Positions 8,795 to 41,301 of a stretch of DNA of 64,000 nt are shown in pieces. Below the pieces are notes generated by a model. The model was not told the DNA's origin. It saw nothing but the letters and a program-made list of their open reading frames with translations, and searched no databases. Origin of the DNA: Lentzea fradiae (GTDB taxonomy: Bacteria; Actinomycetota; Actinomycetes; Mycobacteriales; Pseudonocardiaceae). The position numbers and the translations under genes are program-made. Within the stretch, counting starts at the first letter, position 1. Every line of letters begins with the position of its first letter. The stretch is from NCBI RefSeq assembly GCF_900100955.1, contig NZ_FNCC01000011.1:248001-312000 (forward strand), given 5' to 3'.

Positions 8795-10267
8795 ATGCTC
8801 GAGGGCCCTGTCAGCACGGTCGTGCTCGCCGCCGGGGAAGGCACCCGCATGCGGTCGTCCACGCCCAAGGTGCTGCACCGGATCGCCGGACGCTCACTCG
8901 TCGAACACGCGGTCCGCGCCGCGGCCGGCACAGACCCCGACCACCTGGCCGTCGTCGTCGGCCACGGCCGCGAAGCAGTCACCGAGCATCTGGAAGCACT
9001 CGCGGGCGCGCTCGGCCGCAAGGTCACCGTCGCGGTGCAGGCCGAGCAGAAGGGCACCGGCCACGCGGTCGGCTGCGGCCTCGCCGAGCTGCCCGGCGAC
9101 CTGGGCGGCACCGTGATCGTGAGCTACGGCGACGTGCCGCTGCTCGACACCGAGACCTTCCGGGCGCTGCTCGCCGAGCACTCCTCCGCGGGCAACGCCG
9201 TCACCGTCCTGACCGCAGAGGTGGAGAACCCCACCGGGTACGGCCGGATCGTCCGCGACGCCGACGGCACCGTCCTGCGGATCGTGGAGCAGAAGGACGC
9301 CTCCCCCGAGGAACAGCGCATCACCGAGATCAACTCGGGCGTCTACGCGTTCGACGCGGCGGTGCTGCGCTCCGGCCTGTCGCGACTGTCCACCGACAAC
9401 GCGCAGGGCGAGCTCTACCTGACCGACGTCCTGGGCATCGCCCGCGGCGACGGCCTGCGCGTCGGCGCGCTGGTCGCGTCCGACCGCTGGCTCGTCGAGG
9501 GCATCAACGACCGCGTCCAGCTCGCGGCCGTCGGCGCCGAGATGAACCGCCGCCTCGTCGAGTCCCTGATGCGCTCCGGCGTCACCGTCGTCGACCCGGC
9601 CACCGTCTGGGTCGACGCGGACGTGACGGTCGGCCAGGACGCCCTGATCGAGCCGAACGTGCAGCTCCGCGCGGGCACCTCCGTCGGAGCGGGCGCCGTC
9701 GTCGGCCCGGACACCACCCTGTCCGGGGTGACGGTGGGCGCGGGCGCGACCGTCGTGCGCACCCACGGCAGCGACTCGGTGATCGGCGACAACGCGACCG
9801 TCGGCCCGTTCGCCTACCTGCGCCCCGGCACTTCTCTAGGCGTGAAGGGCAAGATCGGCACGTTCGTCGAGACCAAGAACTCGACGATCGGCGAAGGTTC
9901 GAAGGTCCCCCACCTCTCCTACATCGGCGACGCCACGATCGGCGACCACAGCAACATCGGCGCCGCCTCCGTGACCGTCAACTACGACGGCGTGAACAAA
10001 CACCGCACGATCGTCGGTTCCCACTGCCGCACCGGCTCGGACAACATGTTCGTGGCACCGGTCACGGTGGGCGACGGCGCGTACACGGGCGCGGGCACGG
10101 TCCTGCGCCGCGACGTCCCACCCGGCGCCCTGGCGGTGTCCGGCGGCCCACAGCGCAACCTCGAAGGCTGGGTCCTCAGCCGTCGTGAGGGCACCGCCGC
10201 GGCTCAGGCGGCGGCAGCAGCCCTCGCGAAGCAGAATGCGGACGAGAAGACACAGGAGGGTCGCTGA
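8795..10267 (+). CDS. glmU: Bifunctional GlmU (UDP-GlcNAc synthesis)
   Basis: Makes UDP-N-acetylglucosamine for peptidoglycan in two steps: acetylation of glucosamine-1-phosphate, then uridylylation. The N-terminal pyrophosphorylase has [18 protein letters not shown] (about 10-27), with [15 protein letters not shown] and [11 protein letters not shown] after it. The C-terminal left-handed beta-helix acetyltransferase shows hexapeptide repeats and the active-site block [17 protein letters not shown] near residue 375. The length (490) is normal. ATG 8795 follows AGGGAGA at 8782-8788 with good spacing; the TTG one codon earlier is less likely. It lies two bases from prs, so the two are one operon. 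Confidence 0.98.
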
Positions 10268-32886: not shown

Positions 32887-35016
32887 ATGAGCACCACCGT
32901 ACAAACACGTGTCGCGCAGGCCAGGAAGCTGCTCGGCACGGGCAACCGAACGCCGAAGGCACCGGGCTTCCGCGCCGACGTCCAGGCCCTGCGCGCGATC
33001 GCGGTGCTGGCAGTGGTGGTGAACCACTTCTGGCCCGGCGTGCTCACCGGTGGCTACGTCGGCGTCGACGTCTTCTTCGTCATCTCCGGCTTCCTGATCA
33101 CCTCGCACCTGGGCCGCGAGATCGCGCGCACCGGGCGCGTCCGGTTCGGCACGTTCTACGCGCGCCGCATCCGCCGGTTGATGCCCGCGGCGCTGTTGGT
33201 GCTCGCCGTGAGCGTCGTGCTGGCGGGCGTGCTGCTGCCGTACCCGCGGTGGTCGGCGACGGCGTGGGAGACGTTCGCGTCCGCCTTCTACTGGGAGAAC
33301 TGGCTCCTCGCGGCGAAGTCGGTGAACTACTCGGCGCAGAACGCCTCGGCGAGCGTCGTCCAGCACTTCTGGTCGCTGTCGGTGGAGGAGCAGTTCTACC
33401 TGTTCTGGCCGCTGCTGCTGGTCGGCCTCGTCTCGCTCGGTCGCAACCTGCGCTGGCTCGTGCCCGGCGTCGCCGCCGTCGGCGTGCTGTCGCTGGTGGT
33501 CAGCGTCGTGCACACGGCCCTGTCCCCCAACCCGGCCTACTTCAACACCTTCGCGCGGGTGTGGGAGTTCGCGCTCGGGGCGTTCGTCGCGCTGCTGGCG
33601 TCGAAGCTGGTGCTGCCGCGCGTCCTCGCGGAGGTCGCGGCGGGCGTCGGTTTCGTGCTGATCCTCGTCCCCGCGTTCGTCTACGACCACACCACGCCGT
33701 TCCCCGGCTCGCTCGCGCTGGTCCCGACGATCGGCACCGCGCTGGTGATCGTCTCCGGGCTGCGGCCGGGACCGCAGTGGCACACCCCGGTGACGGCGTC
33801 GGCGCCCGTGCAGTTCATCGGCAACATCAGCTACTCGCTGTACCTGTGGCACTGGCCGGTCGTGGTCCTCGCGCCGTTCGTCCTCGGCGGCTCGCTCGAC
33901 GGAGGCAAGCTGACCACGGCCTGGCTGCTGTGGCTGCTGGCGCTGTCGGTCGTGCTGGCGTGGCTCACGAAGATGCTGGTGGAGGACCGCGCCCGCACGT
34001 TCGCACCGCTGGTGCGCAACACGAAGACGACCTTCGCGGCGATGTTCGCCGGCCTGCTCGTGGTCGAGGTCCTCGCGGGCGGGCTCCAGGCGGGCTACCA
34101 CCAGCGGGTCGCCGCCGCCGGGCGGGAGGTCCCCCAGGAGATCAAGATCACCGGGTGCCACGGCGCCGCCGCGATGATCGCGGAGAACAACTGCGCCGAC
34201 CCGTTCGGCCCTGCCCGTGTCACGGAGATGGGCCCGGCCAACGAGTACTGGCACCCCGCCCCGGAGTGTGAGGTCACCGACCGCTTCAAGGTCGGTGACA
34301 AGCGGACGATGTCGGTGTGCGACTTCAGCGGCGACGGCAAGCCCACCCAGACCGTGTGGCTGCTCGGCGACTCGCACGCCGAGCAGTGGCAGCCAGCGGT
34401 GTTCGAGGTGGCCCGCAAGGAGAAGTGGCTGCTCAAGGTCGGCATCCTGGGCGGCTGCCCGTTCGCCGACGTCCAGTTCAGCGGCTACCGCGCCCCTGGG
34501 GGGATGGCCGACATCATGAGCTGCTACGAGTGGAAGGCGCAGGTGGTCCCCGCGGTCACCGACGACCGGCCGTCGATGGTGCTGATGTCGTTCTTCTCGC
34601 GCCAGGAGTTCGTGGAGGACGGCAGCGGCCGCAGCCAGACCGAGCAGTACCGCACCGGCCTCGAACCGTGGTGGCAGGCGTGGACGGACACCGGCACGCG
34701 CGTCTTCGTCATCGCCGACCCGCCGTACAACCGGGACGTCCGCTCGACCGACTGCGCGACGCTGAACGCCTCGAACCCCAAGGCGTGCGCGATGCCGCGC
34801 GACAAGGCGCACCCGCCGGACCCGCTGACCGAGGTCGCGAAGTCGACGAGCAACCCGCGCGTCTCGCTGATCGACCTGACGAACTACTTCTGCGACAGAG
34901 AGCTCTGTTACAGCGTGATCGGGAACGTGACGGTGTACTTCGACGGCGACCACATCAACAAGGAGTACAGCCGCACGCTGACACCGATGATCGAGCAGGC
35001 GCTCAGCTCGCGCTGA
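32887..35016 (+). CDS. OafA-type acyltransferase with fused SGNH domain (copy 1)
   Basis: A 709-residue envelope O-acyltransferase. The N-terminal Acyl_transf_3 domain has about ten helices and the block QALRAIAVLAVVVNHFWPG (catalytic His near residue 46) followed by GGYVGVDVFFVISGFLIT. SVEEQFYLFWPLLL near residue 165 and YSLYLWHWPVVVLAPF near 315 are standard. The extracytoplasmic SGNH domain (about 430-700) has GDSHAEQW near 494 and the Asp-His pair in DGDHINKEY near 685. Such proteins acetylate cell-wall or exported polysaccharides; the target is unknown. A TACGAT at 32849-32854 may be the -10. A close paralog follows. Confidence 0.92.
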   Translation: MSTTVQTRVAQARKLLGTGNRTPKAPGFRADVQALRAIAVLAVVVNHFWPGVLTGGYVGVDVFFVISGFLITSHLGREIARTGRVRFGTFYARRIRRLMPAALLVLAVSVVLAGVLLPYPRWSATAWETFASAFYWENWLLAAKSVNYSAQNASASVVQHFWSLSVEEQFYLFWPLLLVGLVSLGRNLRWLVPGVAAVGVLSLVVSVVHTALSPNPAYFNTFARVWEFALGAFVALLASKLVLPRVLAEVAAGVGFVLILVPAFVYDHTTPFPGSLALVPTIGTALVIVSGLRPGPQWHTPVTASAPVQFIGNISYSLYLWHWPVVVLAPFVLGGSLDGGKLTTAWLLWLLALSVVLAWLTKMLVEDRARTFAPLVRNTKTTFAAMFAGLLVVEVLAGGLQAGYHQRVAAAGREVPQEIKITGCHGAAAMIAENNCADPFGPARVTEMGPANEYWHPAPECEVTDRFKVGDKRTMSVCDFSGDGKPTQTVWLLGDSHAEQWQPAVFEVARKEKWLLKVGILGGCPFADVQFSGYRAPGGMADIMSCYEWKAQVVPAVTDDRPSMVLMSFFSRQEFVEDGSGRSQTEQYRTGLEPWWQAWTDTGTRVFVIADPPYNRDVRSTDCATLNASNPKACAMPRDKAHPPDPLTEVAKSTSNPRVSLIDLTNYFCDRELCYSVIGNVTVYFDGDHINKEYSRTLTPMIEQALSSR

Positions 35017-35089: not shown

Positions 35090-35292
35090 CCTCCGCGGGG
35101 CACCCCCTGCGGTGCCCGAGCTCCCGGATGAACCACGGCTTAGGTCGTTGAACGGTGAATCACCGTTACGGGTAACTCCCACGTTCACCCGGATCGCCTA
35201 GAAGCAGGCCCGAAATATCGTCCTCACCAGGTGCGGTCGGTTAGCATCCCCGCTCGCACCTCAAGCGAGTGACACTCGAAGGACGTACCCCT

Positions 35293-37404
35293 GTGAGCAC
35301 CACCGTCGAGTCACGCCCGGAGCACGGCAGCCGGCCCGACGGACACGGGCAGCGGAAGGCTCGCGGCTTCCGCACGGACGTGCAGGCCCTGCGCGCGATC
35401 GCCGTGCTGGCCGTCGTGGTGAACCACTTCTGGCCGGGCTCGCTCACCGGCGGCTACGTCGGCGTCGACGTCTTCTTCGTCATCTCCGGCTTCCTGATCA
35501 CCTCGCACCTCGACCGCGAGATCCTCCGCACCGGCCGGGTCCGGCTCGGCCGCTTCTACGCGCGCCGCGTCCGCCGCCTGCTGCCCGCCGCGCTGCTGGT
35601 GCTCGCGCTCAGCGTCGTGATGGCGTACTTCCTGCTCCCGTACCCGCGCTGGACCGCCAACGCGTGGGAGTCCTTCTCCGCCGCCTCCTACTGGGAGAAC
35701 TGGCTCCTCGCGGGCAAGTCGGTGAACTACTCGGCGCAGAACGAGGCCGCGAGCCTGGTGCAGCACTACTGGTCGCTGTCGGTGGAGGAGCAGTTCTACC
35801 TGTTCTGGCCGCTGCTGCTGATGGGCATGTTCAAGCTCGGCAGGCGCCGCCGGGTGATGGCCGGCGTCGCGGTCCTCGGCGCGTTGTCGCTGGGCCTGAG
35901 CGTCCACTACACGATCGTCTCGCCGAGCGCGGCGTACTTCATCACGCCGGTCCGCGTGTGGGAGTTCGCGATCGGCGCGGGCATCGCACTGGCCGCCACC
36001 CGGCTCGTGCTCCCCCGCCTCGCCGCGGAGCTGGCCGCGTTCACCGGTCTCGCCCTGATCGTCGCGACCGCGTTCGTCTACGACCACCACACGCCGTTTC
36101 CCGGCTACCTCGCCCTGCTGCCCGCGGCCGGCACCGGCCTGGTGATCATGTCCGGCTTGCGCCCCGGCCGTCAGTGGCACACACCCGTGACCGCCTCCCG
36201 GCCGGTGCAGTTCGTCGGCGACATCAGCTACTCGCTCTACCTGTGGCACTGGCCGGTGCTGCTGCTGGCCCCGTTCGCGCTGGGCGGTCTGCTCGAGGGC
36301 GGCAAGCTCACCACGCCCTGGCTCTTCGGCCTGCTCGCGGTGTCGCTGGTGCTCGCCTGGCTGTCGAAGGTGCTCGTCGAGGACCGCGGCATGGCGTGGG
36401 GCCCGCTCACCAGGAGCACCCGCCTGACGTTCGCGGGCATGGTGGCGGGCATCGCCGTCGTCGCCGTCCTCGCGACGGGCCTGCAGTGGACCTACGGCAG
36501 GCACGTGGCGCAGGCCGAACGCGACGTGGCCGCCGGTCTCACCAGCCCGTGCCACGGCGCCGGGGCCATGATCGGCACCAACGGCTGCCCCACCCCGTTC
36601 GGCCCGGCGAGGGTGACGGCGATGGGTCCCGCGAACGAGTACTGGCGGCTCGCCCCCGAGTGCAGGCAGATCCAGGACTACAACGCCGGCGACAAGCACA
36701 CGACGTCGATCTGCGACTTCTCCGGCGGCGCACCCGCCAGGAAGGTCTGGCTGGTCGGCGACTCCCATGCCCAGCAGTGGCAGTCCTCGCTGTTCGAGCT
36801 GGCCCGCGCCTCGAAGTGGCAGCTCAAGCTCGCGTTCCTCGGCGGCTGCCCGTTCGCCGACGTGCGCACCAGCGAGTTCCGCGGCAAGCCGATCGCGAGC
36901 CACGAGGCCGACCGCTGCGCGAACTGGACCCGCCGGATGACCGACGTGATCGCCGATGACCGCCCGTCACTGGTGCTGACGTCGTTCTTCGCCCGCAAGG
37001 AAGTGGTCGAGGACCGTGCCCGCCGCGGCCAGACCGAGCAGTACCGGGCGGGCCTGGAACCCCGCTGGCGCAAGTGGACGGACGCGGGCGCCCGAGTCGT
37101 CGTCCTCGCCGACCCGCCCCTCAACAGCGACGTCCGCTCCCCCGACTGCGTGACGCTGAACCCCTCCGACCCGCTCGCCTGCGCCATCCCGCGCGAGACC
37201 GCCCACCCGGCCGACCCGCTGGTGGAGGTCGCACGCACCACGACGGTGCCGGGGGTGTCGCTGGTGGACCTGAGCGAGTACTTCTGCGACCCGCGGCAGT
37301 GCTACTCGGTCATCGGGAACGTCGTCGTCTACTACGACGCCGACCACGTGAACGGCGAGTACAGCCGCAGCCTGGCGCCGGTGGTCGAGAAAGCCCTGGG
37401 CTGA
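35293..37404 (+). CDS. OafA-type acyltransferase with fused SGNH domain (copy 2)
   Basis: A 703-residue paralog of the preceding gene with the same architecture: a multi-helix Acyl_transf_3 domain (QALRAIAVLAVVVNHFWPG, FFVISGFLITSHLDREI) and an SGNH domain with GDSHAQQW near residue 487 and DADHVNGEY near 681. The two proteins share long identical stretches around both active sites, so this is a tandem duplication, but linkers and the C-terminal half differ. GTG 35293 is favoured by GAAGGA at 35279-35284; an in-frame GTG at 35269 adds eight residues. It ends 28 bp from the convergent kinase gene. Confidence 0.92.
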   Translation: MSTTVESRPEHGSRPDGHGQRKARGFRTDVQALRAIAVLAVVVNHFWPGSLTGGYVGVDVFFVISGFLITSHLDREILRTGRVRLGRFYARRVRRLLPAALLVLALSVVMAYFLLPYPRWTANAWESFSAASYWENWLLAGKSVNYSAQNEAASLVQHYWSLSVEEQFYLFWPLLLMGMFKLGRRRRVMAGVAVLGALSLGLSVHYTIVSPSAAYFITPVRVWEFAIGAGIALAATRLVLPRLAAELAAFTGLALIVATAFVYDHHTPFPGYLALLPAAGTGLVIMSGLRPGRQWHTPVTASRPVQFVGDISYSLYLWHWPVLLLAPFALGGLLEGGKLTTPWLFGLLAVSLVLAWLSKVLVEDRGMAWGPLTRSTRLTFAGMVAGIAVVAVLATGLQWTYGRHVAQAERDVAAGLTSPCHGAGAMIGTNGCPTPFGPARVTAMGPANEYWRLAPECRQIQDYNAGDKHTTSICDFSGGAPARKVWLVGDSHAQQWQSSLFELARASKWQLKLAFLGGCPFADVRTSEFRGKPIASHEADRCANWTRRMTDVIADDRPSLVLTSFFARKEVVEDRARRGQTEQYRAGLEPRWRKWTDAGARVVVLADPPLNSDVRSPDCVTLNPSDPLACAIPRETAHPADPLVEVARTTTVPGVSLVDLSEYFCDPRQCYSVIGNVVVYYDADHVNGEYSRSLAPVVEKALG

Positions 37405-37432: not shown

Positions 37433-39451
37433 CTACATCGGCATGTGCCTCGTCGGAGGCGGTCCCGGCTTGCCGATCATCTTCGTCACCGGGCCCTCCT
37501 TGCTCATGCCCTGCTGGTCGAGGAACTGCGACAGCTGCCCCCGCACCTGCGCGAGCGACGGGCGGCGGGACGGTTCCGGGTCCATCGCCGCGAGCAGCAG
37601 GCGGGCGTGCGCGCTGTTCTGCGGCAGCTTCGTCACCGGTTCGCCCTGGGCGGCGGCCATCAGCGAGGAGATCGGGTTCTCGCGGGAGCCGCGCGGCGGG
37701 TGGCCGGTGAGGGCGTAGGAGACCGTCGCGGCCAGCTGCCACGAGTCGGACGCGGGGGACGCCGCCTCGCCGCGTGCGGTCTCCGGTGCGAGGAAGTCGG
37801 GGGTGCCGACCATCATGCCGGTGGCGGTGAGGGTGCTGTCGCCCTTGGAGCGCGCGATGCCGAAGTCGATCAGGTGCGCGGTGCCCTGGTTGTCGACGAT
37901 CACGTTGGACGGCTTCACGTCGCGGTGCAGGACGCCCCGGTCGTGCGCGGCGGCCAGTGCGTCGGCCATGTTGAGCCACAGGCGGGCGGCGAGCTTGTCG
38001 TCGATCAGGCCGTTCTTGATGACCGTCTCCGACAGCGATGCGCCCTCGATGTACTCCATGACCAGCGCGAGGCCGTCCGGGTCCTGGACGATGTCGAACA
38101 CCCGCACGCAGTTCGGGTGGCGGACGGCGGCCAGTGCGCGGGCCTCGCGCAGCATGCGGGCCTCGGTCTCGTTGTCCGGGGCGTGCGCGAGCTTCACCGC
38201 GACCGTGCGGTCGAGCTGCTCGTCGACGGCCAGCCAGACGGTGCCGAAGCCGCCGGAGCCGAGCTGGCGGACGCGGCGGAACCGGCCGTTGCCGGGGTTC
38301 CAGACCTTGCCCGACTTCTGCACGGGGGACGGCGCGTCGGCGTTCGCGGCGCCGGGGCCGAACGGCAGCGGGCCCGGCGTGTCGGCGAGGACGGCCGGCT
38401 GGGACGGCTGCGGGGGCGGCGCGTGGTGCGGCGGGACCTCGGCCACGCGGGTCGGCGGGTACTGCGGTGGCGGCTGGTTCACCGGGCGCATCGGCCGGTT
38501 CAGCGGCGCCGGCTGGTACTTCGGCACCTGCGCCGGCTGGTACGGCGGCGGGTTCTGCGGCGGCTGGTGCGGCTGGCGCTGGGACGGCTGGTGCTGAGAA
38601 GGCTGGTGCTGGGACGGCTGCTGGTACTGCGCCGCGTCGATCGGCTTGGTCTGCGCCTTCTTCTGCGGGGCGGGGGGCAGCGACGACTGCTGCGGCGTGC
38701 GCGCCACCGGCTGCGGTGGCGGCGAGTTCTGCGAGTTCCGGTCGGCGGACCGGTCGCGGCCGGGGCGGTTCAGCATGGCGGTAGTCAACCCGAAAATCCG
38801 CACGACGATTGAGCCGATTACCGCAATCGGCAGAAAGCCCAGGAGCACGTGGCCCACCAGCGTCACCGGTTGTGCCGACGTGGCCGCGAGGAGCACCAGG
38901 AACGGCGGCCAGAAGACGCGCCGCGGCCAGCTCGGGCCGAGCCGGAACGCCGAGCCCGCCTGCAGCATCACGAACAGCAGGCACAGCAACGCCAGCACGA
39001 TGGTGATGCCGGCCGCGACCAGGAACACGAGGGACCCGCCGAGGTCCCTGGCCACGCCGATGATCGACGGGGTGCCGTCGACGAGGTAGCTGCCCTGGGA
39101 GAACTGGTTGAAGCAGGTGGCGCTGTCGAGCGAGGAGGAGCCGGGGATCGAGCGCGAGGCGAGGCCCTCGACGGTGCCGCGCATGATCAGCCACGGCAGC
39201 ACCAGGCAGCCGGCGACACCGAGCACGGCGAAGATCGCGCCCGTGACGGGGCCGTAGGAGTTGCCGACGACCCGGCGCACCGCGATGGACAGCAGCGCCC
39301 CGATCGTGGGGAACAACCCGAGCACCGCGCCGAGCGCGGTGGTGGTCCACACCCAGTCACCGGGGCAGATTGTGGCGCCCACGAAGCCGTGCAGCCACGT
39401 GAGCAAGGACTCGGCGAGCCCCACGACCGACACCACCCCTTCCGCGATCAC
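37433..39451 (-). CDS. Ser/Thr protein kinase with N-terminal membrane domain
   Basis: A 672-residue Hanks-type kinase in reversed order. Residues 1-225 hold about six hydrophobic helices and a Cys-containing loop (SLDSATCFNQFSQGSY). Residues 226-380 are a Pro/Gln-rich disordered linker with three PSQHQ/PSQRQ copies. The kinase domain (about 390-650) is C-terminal. Motifs are intact: GSGGFGTVW, VAVKLAHAP, MEYIEGASL, HRDVKPSNVIVD near 510, IDFGIARS and GTPDFLAPE with activation-loop threonines. Mycobacterial PknA/B have the kinase first and PASTA repeats outside, which are absent here. It ends a run of minus-strand genes (WXG-like, EspC-like, SEFIR-SseB); a functional link is inferred. Confidence 0.92.
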   Translation of the reverse strand: MIAEGVVSVVGLAESLLTWLHGFVGATICPGDWVWTTTALGAVLGLFPTIGALLSIAVRRVVGNSYGPVTGAIFAVLGVAGCLVLPWLIMRGTVEGLASRSIPGSSSLDSATCFNQFSQGSYLVDGTPSIIGVARDLGGSLVFLVAAGITIVLALLCLLFVMLQAGSAFRLGPSWPRRVFWPPFLVLLAATSAQPVTLVGHVLLGFLPIAVIGSIVVRIFGLTTAMLNRPGRDRSADRNSQNSPPPQPVARTPQQSSLPPAPQKKAQTKPIDAAQYQQPSQHQPSQHQPSQRQPHQPPQNPPPYQPAQVPKYQPAPLNRPMRPVNQPPPQYPPTRVAEVPPHHAPPPQPSQPAVLADTPGPLPFGPGAANADAPSPVQKSGKVWNPGNGRFRRVRQLGSGGFGTVWLAVDEQLDRTVAVKLAHAPDNETEARMLREARALAAVRHPNCVRVFDIVQDPDGLALVMEYIEGASLSETVIKNGLIDDKLAARLWLNMADALAAAHDRGVLHRDVKPSNVIVDNQGTAHLIDFGIARSKGDSTLTATGMMVGTPDFLAPETARGEAASPASDSWQLAATVSYALTGHPPRGSRENPISSLMAAAQGEPVTKLPQNSAHARLLLAAMDPEPSRRPSLAQVRGQLSQFLDQQGMSKEGPVTKMIGKPGPPPTRHMPM

Positions 39452-39595
39452 CCCCAGCCTAGGCGTCTTGACAGCCTACGGTGCGTGATCGGTCTGCGGT
39501 TGACGCCACAGCAACCCGCTGCCCGTCACCGCGTCGTACCCACCCGTTCGCCGTAGTGCGAGACGCCGTCTCCTCTACAACGCGGTGGAACCCCG

Positions 39596-40168
39596 TCACG
39601 TTGACCACCTCCGCCAACGCGGGTAGCGCGCGGTGATCGCGAGCGTCGTCAGCACCGTCTCGACGTGCGGCTTCGCCATGAAGTCCTCCACCTGCGGCAC
39701 CACCGGCGGTGCCGCGGCGACCGGCACCTGCGCCGCGGAGGGCGCCGGGACGCCGTCCGTGACCCGCACCGGAACGGGGTCGTGGTCGCGCAGCTCCGAC
39801 CGCACGTGTCTCAGTTCGTCGGTCGCGACGCCGACGGCGCGGACGGCGAGCTGCTCCTCCTCGGCGAGCTGCCGCCACAGCCGCTCAGCCTGGTCGGGGT
39901 CCGCGTGCTGGACGAGACGGCTCACCTCGACGTGGGTGTAGAGGTAGGTCTCGACGGCGTCGTGGGCGGCCTCGAACGCGTCGGACACCTCGAGCCAGCG
40001 CTTCCGCGCCCGGTACCGGTACTCGTCGAACTTGGTGCTCGCCGCGCCGGTCCACCCGTTCGCCGTGGCCCTGGCATGGGCGAACCCCACGGATGCGCAC
40101 TCGTCACGCATCCGCTTCAACCACTCCTGCACGCTCAGGAGGTAGTGGAAGTCGCTGGTGAGGCTCAC
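39596..40168 (-). CDS. Uncharacterised WXG-like/type VII-associated protein
   Basis: A 190-residue protein not matched to a named family. The N-terminal 120 residues are helical with ANGWTGAASTKFDEYRYRAR near residue 36, a WxG-like turn between two helices as in type VII secretion substrates and their partners. Then come a Pro/Ala/Val-rich spacer (about 130-155) and a short conserved-looking tail (DFMAKPHVETVLTTLAITA). No signal peptide or membrane helix. GTG 40168 overlaps the EspC-like stop (GTGA), so the two are translated together and may form a heterodimer. No ESX core gene is in the window. Confidence 0.7.
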   Translation of the reverse strand: MSLTSDFHYLLSVQEWLKRMRDECASVGFAHARATANGWTGAASTKFDEYRYRARKRWLEVSDAFEAAHDAVETYLYTHVEVSRLVQHADPDQAERLWRQLAEEEQLAVRAVGVATDELRHVRSELRDHDPVPVRVTDGVPAPSAAQVPVAAAPPVVPQVEDFMAKPHVETVLTTLAITARYPRWRRWST

Positions 40169-40428
40169 GCGAGAAAGGTGTCCACCTCTTCGTAATGTCG
40201 GGCTGTGTCGACGAGGCGGTCCGCCGTGCCTTCGACGTCGCGCACCAATTCTGCTGTCGCCTGCTCGGAGACGTCTCGGAACCTCGCGAGTGCGGCGAAC
40301 AGGTCACCGCGGGTGGGGTCCGTCCGTCCGTCCGGGTGCCGGGCCAGGGAGGTGACCTCCTCGGCCGCTCGGACCAACGGGCCGACGAGCGCCCGCAGCT
40401 CCGCCGGATCGACGCTGAACCCGTTCAA
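40165..40428 (-). CDS. EspC-like small helical protein (ESX-associated family)
   Basis: An 87-residue all-helical protein resembling the T7SS_ESX_EspC family (PF10824-type). It begins GFSVDPAELRALVGPLVRAA, with a central helix FAALARFRDVSEQATAELVRDVEGTA and the ending HYEEVDTFLA. The YxxxD/E signal of ESX substrates can be read as YEEVD near the C-terminus. TTG start at 40428 with GGAGG four bases upstream; it overlaps the next gene by four bases. It sits 45 bp after the SEFIR-SseB gene, in the same operon. The family assignment is by pattern and would need a profile search. Confidence 0.72.
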   Translation of the reverse strand: MNGFSVDPAELRALVGPLVRAAEEVTSLARHPDGRTDPTRGDLFAALARFRDVSEQATAELVRDVEGTADRLVDTARHYEEVDTFLA

Positions 40429-40473
40429 GACACCTCCACCGGGGAAAGTTTGGTCAGGAACGGTACTGGAGCG

Positions 40474-41301
40474 TCAGCCGATGAGCCCTCGGATGTCGGC
40501 GGCGGACACGAAGACCACCTCGTCGCGTGACGCCCCCGCGTCGACCACCACCCCGACGCCGAGCGGCGCCACGAGCGGCAGCAGCTCCGCGCCCTCGACC
40601 TCGAGCCAGCGGTCGTCCCACGGGAAGCCCTTGAGCCGCCGGTAGGCCACCAGCCGGTCGAGCCCGGTGAACGCGAGCACCGCCCGCTCGTGGCCGGAGA
40701 CGTCCGCCGCGACCAGGCCGGGCCGTCCGGGATCGGGCAGGTAGACGGTGGTGTTGAGCAGCTCGGCGACGACCTCGGGGTCACCGGCCCTGGCGAGCTC
40801 GCGCAGCCGCGGCACGGGCGTCTCGTACATCGGCCGCCCGGACAGCTGGTGCTCCAGGTCCACAGCGGACGACGGGTCGCCGGGGTCGACGACGAAGTGC
40901 GGCACGCAGGTGAGCGACGGCGGGATGTCGTCGACCGTGGCACCGGGCAGCACTACGACGATCACCTTGCGCTGGAACAACTGCGGCCGTTGCAGGAGCA
41001 GCCCGCGCAGGTGCTTCAGCTCGTACTCGACGCCCCGGCTGTCCGGGTTGCGGCCGCTGAACGCGAGGGCCCAGCCCGGCGACACCGCGACGGCGATCCG
41101 GTCCGCGTCCTCCATGTGCCGCAGGCAGAACGTCGGCCAGTCGACGGGTTCGTGCTGGTGGTAGAGGTCGATCTCGGGCTTGGCGCCGATCTCGTGCAGC
41201 AGCCCGGCGAACCTGTGCAGCGTCTCCCGCCAGGCCCGTGTTCGCGCGGCGTCCCAGCCGGGACTCGTGTGTGCCCAGACCACGAACACCTCGGGACGCA
41301 T
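40474..41301 (-). CDS. SEFIR-SseB fusion protein
   Basis: A 275-residue two-domain protein. Residues 1-150 look like a SEFIR (TIR-related) domain: MRPEVFVVWAHTSPGWDAAR, DLYHQHEPVDWPTFCLRHME, ADRIAVAVSPGWALAF, RGVEYELKHLRGLL and RKVIVVVLPG. SEFIR domains mediate signalling contacts and in bacteria are linked to defence or NAD-type effectors. Residues 165-275 fit SseB: NTTVYLPDP, VLAFTGLDRLVAY, GAELLPLVAPLGVGVVVDAG and VVFVSAADIRGLI. SseB-like domains in actinobacteria often accompany type VII loci. ATG 41301 is preferred (CATGAT six bases upstream); an in-frame GTG at 41319 also exists. First gene of the four-gene cassette. Confidence 0.8.
   Translation of the reverse strand: MRPEVFVVWAHTSPGWDAARTRAWRETLHRFAGLLHEIGAKPEIDLYHQHEPVDWPTFCLRHMEDADRIAVAVSPGWALAFSGRNPDSRGVEYELKHLRGLLLQRPQLFQRKVIVVVLPGATVDDIPPSLTCVPHFVVDPGDPSSAVDLEHQLSGRPMYETPVPRLRELARAGDPEVVAELLNTTVYLPDPGRPGLVAADVSGHERAVLAFTGLDRLVAYRRLKGFPWDDRWLEVEGAELLPLVAPLGVGVVVDAGASRDEVVFVSAADIRGLIG

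Follow-up and report, generated by a model that had tools for sequence, protein, structure and literature searches.

The central finding of this study is a small operon in the actinobacterium Lentzea fradiae, genes 1 to 3 (hereafter the trio), which has the architecture of a type VII (ESX) substrate-pair operon and may represent such an operon turned into a signalling module, a reading to which we give a little less than an even chance. The trio lies on the minus strand (39596-41301) of the window, as we call the whole 64,000-nucleotide stretch of DNA that was analysed (positions 248,001 to 312,000 of contig NZ_FNCC01000011.1). The genome is 8.5 Mb in size and belongs to the family Pseudonocardiaceae. 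Gene 1 encodes a SEFIR-SseB fusion, gene 2 an EspC-like protein and gene 3 a short T7SS_signal/WXG protein. Several observations carry this reading: the trio is a conserved operon; across the family SseB-like genes co-occur with EspC-like and T7SS_signal genes and co-vary with them; the motifs of a type VII export signal are shared out between genes 2 and 3; and gene 3 is short where SseB is fused to another domain and long where it is not. We infer further that the products of genes 2 and 3 would form a complex, be exported and control the SEFIR domain.

Results

Genes 1-3 are a genuine conserved operon. An earlier note on this DNA had described four successive minus-strand genes at 37433-41301, with a 45-bp gap between the first two and a GTGA overlap between the second and third. 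The sequence bears this layout out, and both the gap (44-58 bp) and the 4-bp GTGA overlap are kept in all seven Lentzea copies of the trio. Full-length orthologues of gene 1 occur in six other Lentzea genomes (67-81% identity), and the same seven of 24 Lentzea genomes hold full-length gene 1 and strong gene 3 matches. In these genomes the trio is found together, immediately upstream of a membrane Ser/Thr kinase gene, with gene 3 frameshifted near residue 86 in one of them (G272; L036, ~8930-9498, minus strand), a single-contig genome in which genes 1 and 2 are open. SEFIR-SseB homologues devoid of the pair had been named in the earlier note as evidence that would count against it; all seven full-length homologues have the pair, the copy with the frameshifted gene 3 included. 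Gene 2 is conserved in all seven and starts with TTG in the window and with GTG in the other six. The genes look real in view of their dN/dS values, estimated by the Nei-Gojobori method on selected pairs, which are 0.28-0.53 for gene 1, 0.19-0.61 for gene 2 and 0.27-0.50 for gene 3 (G272 excluded). The same genes are present in five named records: four belong to as many Lentzea species, and the fifth (L035/G266), titled Nocardia sp. NRRL S-836, groups with Lentzea in the genome search and is probably misnamed.

In the 17 Lentzea genomes without the trio, nothing in the region fetched upstream of the kinase matches SEFIR-SseB, EspC or gene 3 at E <= 1e-3. The site is empty in ten of the 17, with a small secreted-type gene (recognised by eye) ending 219-241 bp before the kinase match, and the spot between these two genes is variable (L176-L192), being occupied by other genes or laid out differently in the rest. 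The distribution of the trio requires five changes on the kinase tree of Lentzea; this tree is weakly supported (four of 21 branches are well supported, and in 69 of 500 shuffles the trio labels cluster at least as much) and therefore does not settle the order of gain and loss. A scan for sigma-70-type promoters found none.

The domain assignments of the earlier note fared unevenly when profiles were run on the window proteins. The T7SS_signal/WXG and kinase domains pass, and the SEFIR, SseB and EspC domains score below their cut-offs, although relatives support all three. For the SEFIR domain, residues 3-165 of gene 1 match other proteins, with a best E of 1.7e-16 (L008), and among three such matches two pass the Pfam SEFIR profile (L008, 3.1e-18; L029, 1.4e-15) and one fails (L009, 0.022). 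The Lentzea domain keeps residues that are invariant in 23 of 23 other SEFIRs, including H11, W55, S74, G83, G90 and E94; W55 and E94 are present in all 23 and in all seven Lentzea copies. The SEFIR identity is thus supported by confirmed SEFIR proteins that are homologous to gene 1 and share these residues with it. We take E94 to be the equivalent of the catalytic glutamate of TIR NADases. The bSEFIR model of PADLOC (PDLC03957) matches the orthologues L031, L034 and L035 with E values of 1.4e-10, 0.0096 and 1.8e-8, respectively, and the window protein with 0.001; these matches stop by position 195 of 412, short of the full model. The SseB identity is backed at the level of the family by close relatives: the window domain taken alone scores E 0.0049 (17.5 bits) and Pfam SseB (PF07179) recognises ten of the 17 proteins in the family alignment (E <= 0.05, best 1.3e-7), with no other Pfam family listed.

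Genes 2 and 3 have the hallmarks of a type VII substrate pair, whose signal, as described in PMC9600955, is bipartite, one partner contributing WxG and its companion YxxxD/E. In the trio the two halves are divided in the same manner, YxxxD on gene 2 and WxG on gene 3, each in seven of seven copies, and on these motifs we predict that both products are exported. For gene 2, seven of 11 relatives match EspC (PF10824) at E <= 0.05. A Y...[DE] pattern is found near the C terminus of 58 of 61 EspC-like relatives (mean of 13.7 and maximum of 26 in shuffled sequences), and YxxxD/E also occurs in 17 of 20 further ones. Gene 3 passes Pfam T7SS_signal (PF21725) with 33.6 bits against a cut-off of 27, and all ten gene 3 proteins of the family alignment match it at E <= 0.05, some of them below the cut-off. 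Its AlphaFold model (mean pLDDT 70; helix blocks 67-92) has a helix at residues 3-33, the WXG turn, a helix at 42-87, a third helix at 91-128 and then a disordered linker; a further helix at 168-181 is predicted with low confidence. YxxxE is present in only two of the seven copies of gene 3. The ~150 residues that follow the W consist of a Pro-rich linker and a short helix and match no toxin family in Pfam, so that gene 3 does not show the C-terminal toxin domain by which WXG proteins are classed as polymorphic toxins. A class-wide profile search for gene 3 matched 35 of 394 genomes; the frames listed are mostly 400-1800 aa, with a few below 300 (G460, G452 and G500) besides the window, and the short form looks largely family-bound.

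The earlier note had remarked that no ESX core gene (EccB-E, MycP) is in the window, which agrees with the location of EccB, the one tested, on another contig (C31, G000:C31:534601-536154; the window is on C40). EccB is present in 24 of 24 Lentzea genomes. Judged by EccB alone, the trio does not belong to an ESX locus with core ecc genes beside the substrate genes.

SseB-like genes as neighbours of type VII substrates

A profile of the SseB domain, run over 297 genomes of the family, matched in 90 genomes at ~150 places (E <= 0.01). We examined 80 of these regions, 60 taken down the ranking and 20 lower ones picked by hand (leaning to long frames and other genomes); 20 regions picked by their match to the window's own proteins were kept out of the count. 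EspC-like and T7SS_signal genes lie directly downstream of the SseB-like hit in 66 of the 80. Among the first 60, both genes are downstream in 48, the EspC-like gene only in one and neither in 11, one of which has a T7SS_signal gene upstream instead. The 20 further regions have both genes in 18 cases at E <= 1e-4 and in 19 at 0.05, and at least one in all 20; L213 misses the pair rule on position. Six Lentzea genomes (L159, L160, L166, L167, L168 and L172) have loci with SseB, an EspC-like gene and a long T7SS_signal gene that are separate from the SEFIR trio.

In loci whose SseB has no recognised fused domain, the T7SS_signal gene typically continues into a long C-terminal part. The last 130 residues of these proteins form 14 BLAST clusters in 33 loci, and these variable C termini are probably toxins, as in polymorphic toxins. 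Across 40 loci, SseB similarity follows that of the T7SS_signal N-domain (rho 0.77; as high in none of 200 permutations) and of the EspC-like protein (rho 0.56), and hardly that of the gene 3 C terminus (rho 0.08; as high in 11 of 200). Shared history adds to these correlations, for which the C terminus, being on the same chain as the N-domain, serves as a control. There are also seven cases of SseB pairs at 70-89% identity whose C termini belong to different clusters. Since SseB co-varies with the T7SS_signal domain and not with the variable C terminus, the data fit a role as substrate partner rather than immunity protein, and the latter role in toxin-type loci is disfavoured.

The second comparative result concerns the fusions. 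Wherever a fused SseB is followed by a T7SS_signal gene, gene 3 is short (17 of 17 loci, nine of them from the first set and eight from the second), with at most 263 residues after the W in helical-fusion loci. With an unfused SseB, gene 3 is long in 45 loci (33 + 12) and short in two, and four loci have two or more T7SS_signal open reading frames (ORFs). The lowest value among the long forms is 334, and the short ones include L217 (263), L218 (242) and L226 (no W-x-G, ORF of 209 aa). In the two exceptions, SseB is spread over two ORFs (L153) or a helical domain is encoded on a nearby separate ORF (L170). The first-set split covers L116-L175, and the loci with multiple T7SS_signal ORFs (L130, L131, L148 and L162) were excluded from the Fisher test, which gave p 1e-13 for loci that are not independent, the fusions forming one clade. 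By an SseB without recognised fused domain we mean one with no match to the SEFIR or helical profile in frame, start codons not being fixed; L161, L162, L165 and L231 were counted as unfused though more than 100 other residues precede SseB. Five fused loci found through gene 3, together with the seven Lentzea copies, agree with the split, except for the frameshifted gene 3 of G272.

On the SseB tree, the SEFIR, helical and L065 fusions fall in one supported clade (96/88), set against 48 unfused forms; a single unfused row, L149, is nested in this clade. This tree has 123 columns and some long branches, its inner order is unsure, and it covers the regions gathered before the 20 later ones. The seven SEFIR-SseBs are themselves one clade (100/100), and at 23 other SEFIR loci of the family (~1.5 kb on each side) there was no SseB, EspC or type VII hit at E <= 0.01. 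For these two reasons the SEFIR fusion looks like a single event in Lentzea. A general tie of SEFIR genes to type VII pairs was not seen at the 23 loci. Outside Lentzea the commonest fusion is a helical domain of ~140 residues (..GPELR..WGI..) N-terminal to SseB, the members tried giving nothing convincing against Pfam, NCBIfam, PADLOC or PDB profiles. In three operons (L134, L135 and L136), the fused SseB, EspC-like and short gene 3 are followed by a second helical-domain-SseB copy. A DNA-binding identity considered for the N terminus of L065 found no support in Pfam and PDB searches. The features of the window and the helical-fusion loci are collected in Table 1.

Table 1. Features of the locus and loci with the helical fusion (positions in the window)
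Feature	Position	Strand	Basis
Gene 1, SEFIR-SseB fusion, 275 aa	40474..41301	-	ORF; orthologues; alignment
SEFIR domain, residues 3-163	40813..41295	-	H11, D54-W55, S74, G83, G90, E94 kept
SseB-like domain, residues 164-275, predicted partner of type VII pair	40477..40812	-	Pfam; neighbourhood survey
Gene 2, EspC-like small helical protein, 87 aa	40165..40428	-	PF10824 E 5.8e-4; relatives; conservation
YxxxD export-type motif (YEEVD), gene 2 C terminus	40180..40194	-	Y-E-x-x-D in 7/7 Lentzea
Gene 3, short T7SS_signal/WXG protein, 190 aa	39596..40168	-	PF21725; AlphaFold
W-x-G motif (WTG) in gene 3 turn	40046..40054	-	W[TNR]G in 7/7 Lentzea copies
Conserved C-terminal segment of gene 3 (DFMxxPHxE..), after Pro-rich linker	39608..39685	-	Alignment
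Membrane Ser/Thr kinase, core neighbour outside the trio	37433..39424	-	Pkinase E 1.1e-45; hydrophobic N-terminal segments
Helical-domain-SseB loci (L064, L068, L069, L071, L134-L137, L146-L147, L151-L152, L158, L212-L218, L226)			

The kinase and neighbouring genes

The earlier note had counted the kinase as the fourth member of a cassette. Its Ser/Thr kinase domain is clear (residues 392-636), and its distribution is that of a core gene: the N-terminal 235 residues match once in every one of the 24 Lentzea genomes, and 218 of the 297 family genomes have a match, and the kinase occurs without the trio in 17 of the 24. On this distribution we rejected it as a cassette member, which leaves a three-gene unit. 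Its dN/dS is 0.20-0.26 (window against four others). A start at 39451, 144 bp from gene 3, is probably wrong, because 11 of 24 Lentzea orthologues have a stop at residue 8 of that reading (a TGA inside the kinase match is flagged in 12 of 24); GTG 39424 is likelier and puts the kinase 171 bp from gene 3. Among the trio loci this gap ranges from 119 to 320 bp, and a Shine-Dalgarno-like stretch precedes the corrected start (by eye). ARAGORN reports a tRNA-Arg at 38629-38717 (+), inside the Pro/Gln-rich linker that the kinase encodes on the opposite strand, which is probably a false positive. Beyond the kinase, at 32887-35016 and 35269-37404 (+), are two tandem, mutually similar membrane proteins that by eye look acyltransferase-like. 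In L034 and L035 a relative lies close to the kinase; none was seen in the examined stretches of L031, L032, L033 and L036.

Discussion

How might the trio work? We propose that genes 2 and 3 form a helical EspC-like/WXG heterodimer with both halves of the type VII signal, which the ESX system of the genome would export. In the cytosol this pair would have the SseB domain of gene 1 as its partner, a chaperone or targeting factor; SseB proteins which precede EspC-like and long T7SS_signal genes probably have that role too. In the course of evolution the exported chain would have lost its toxin and the cytosolic partner would have gained an intracellular domain, as the comparative results together suggest. 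Here the output domain would be the TIR-like SEFIR, with its conserved glutamate kept. Binding of the pair may hold SEFIR in one state, and export, or failed export, may alter SEFIR assembly and thereby trigger an output, either NAD cleavage or scaffolded signalling. The suggestion of the earlier note that a small secreted-type pair is read by SEFIR-SseB gains comparative backing from the neighbourhood survey and the co-variation, and its kinase part falls away. By extension, and more tentatively still, Pseudonocardiaceae may hold a class of type VII-coupled signal switches in which the plan of the toxin operon is kept, the toxin is lost and SseB carries an exchangeable intracellular output domain, which is SEFIR in Lentzea and an undescribed helical domain in other members. 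The producer would in this way sense internally whether a decoy pair has been exported.

Several points weigh against this proposal. On the window proteins themselves, Pfam SEFIR (PF08357) reaches E 0.28 and 11.9 bits against a cut-off of 23, Pfam SseB on the whole of gene 1 E 0.022 and 15.4 bits against 21, and EspC on gene 2 E 5.8e-4 and 20.7 bits against 23.5; the AlphaFold model of gene 1 is poor (pLDDT 49.6). On the tree the fused loci go back to a single origin, and the split is therefore not the product of many independent events. In six helical-domain-SseB loci (L132, L139-L143) the fetched region contains no pair, and a further five regions have none downstream. Taken with the G272 frameshift, the six loci mean that gene 1 is able to persist where the pair is incomplete, and in G272 SEFIR does not depend on the pair as an antidote. 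Finally, an output role for the helical domain is a guess.

The main rival, which we consider unlikely, is that SEFIR-SseB is itself the cargo, SseB docking on the toxin-less pair and the pair carrying SEFIR to or through the ESX channel, so that a toxin once fused to gene 3 would now be delivered non-covalently. It would account for the co-variation of SseB with the T7SS_signal domain, for the retained glutamate and for the short gene 3 in all 17 fused loci, as if the effector had switched chains; it sits poorly with the absence of a small immunity-like gene after the trio, where the core kinase comes next in all seven, and with the helical domain of most fusions, which matched no known toxin family. 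SEFIR and TIR domains self-associate, and SEFIR might merely aid the oligomerisation of an export chaperone for a structural or surface pair, with no signalling at all. This we regard as rather improbable, even though known ESX substrates have chaperones, e.g., EspG and EspK (PMC9811218), for it leaves unexplained both the association of fusion with short gene 3 and the differing N-domains within one clade.

Slightly more improbable is a role in anti-phage or abortive defence, in which a SEFIR NADase restrained by the pair would be set free when a phage damages the envelope or the ESX machinery. Bacterial SEFIR is a PADLOC defence model whose N-terminal half matches the window protein and three orthologues, and the trio is scattered on the kinase tree at a variable spot; the adjoining kinase also scores with the PADLOC PD-T4-6 kinase models (E 2.5e-63), but here it is the kinase domain that matches, in a core gene. 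Gene 1 lacks the remainder of the bSEFIR model, however, and fusions of the same clade bear a domain other than SEFIR. We give almost no weight to the four-gene relay of the earlier note, with the kinase as third component: the kinase is directly downstream of the trio in seven of seven loci, but its presence throughout Lentzea with or without the trio, the 119-320 bp gap and the Shine-Dalgarno-like stretch before its own start all speak for a separate gene.

If the signalling-module reading holds, the trio would mark a branch on which toxin secretion may have turned into signalling, with SEFIR as one output, and TIR-like immune domains would thereby be linked to a secretion system. More generally, SseB-like proteins may be a neglected partner family of actinobacterial type VII substrates, which would give a poorly understood domain a testable function. 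The SseB of the Salmonella effector literature is presumably an unrelated protein. Among the titles listed in our literature search, which covered few subscription journals, none connects type VII secretion with SseB, the enhanced serine sensitivity domain, and neither "SseB" nor "SEFIR" occurs in the searched text of a 2012 survey of polymorphic toxins.

Comparison with known systems places the trio among several partial relatives. The NCBIfam model NF033532 ("type VII secretion system-associated protein") matches stand-alone SseB relatives weakly (best E 6.9e-5) and gives no match to the window protein at E <= 10, and NF042914 ("SAV_915 family") matches the window protein at E 0.0035, all below cut-off. 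We see the NF033532 matches as an independent pointer that may link the SseB fold to the T7SS; at 19 NF033532 loci elsewhere in the class the same downstream pair was not seen within 1.5 kb, with one weak EspC-like hit. The Lap1/Lap2 targeting factors of LXG toxins (T7SSb; PMC9600955) are small helical partners encoded beside the substrate, with a C-terminal FxxxD, and gene 2 may work in the same way; they belong to a Firmicute system, and the available text mentions no SseB and no signalling domain. EspG and EspK, chaperones of mycobacterial ESX substrates, are cytosolic substrate partners, the role proposed here for SseB, and differ from it in family by name, as far as the available text of PMC9811218 goes. 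The bSEFIR anti-phage proteins share SEFIR with gene 1, which matches the N-terminal half of their model; in gene 1 SseB takes the place of the remainder, and the operon also encodes a type VII pair. Closest are the T7SS polymorphic-toxin-type operons (PF07179/PF10824/PF21725), with the same gene order, homologous SseB, EspC-like and T7SS_signal domains, and W-x-G and YxxxD/E kept in most of them; the trio differs from them in that its SseB is fused to SEFIR and its gene 3 ends without the long variable C terminus.

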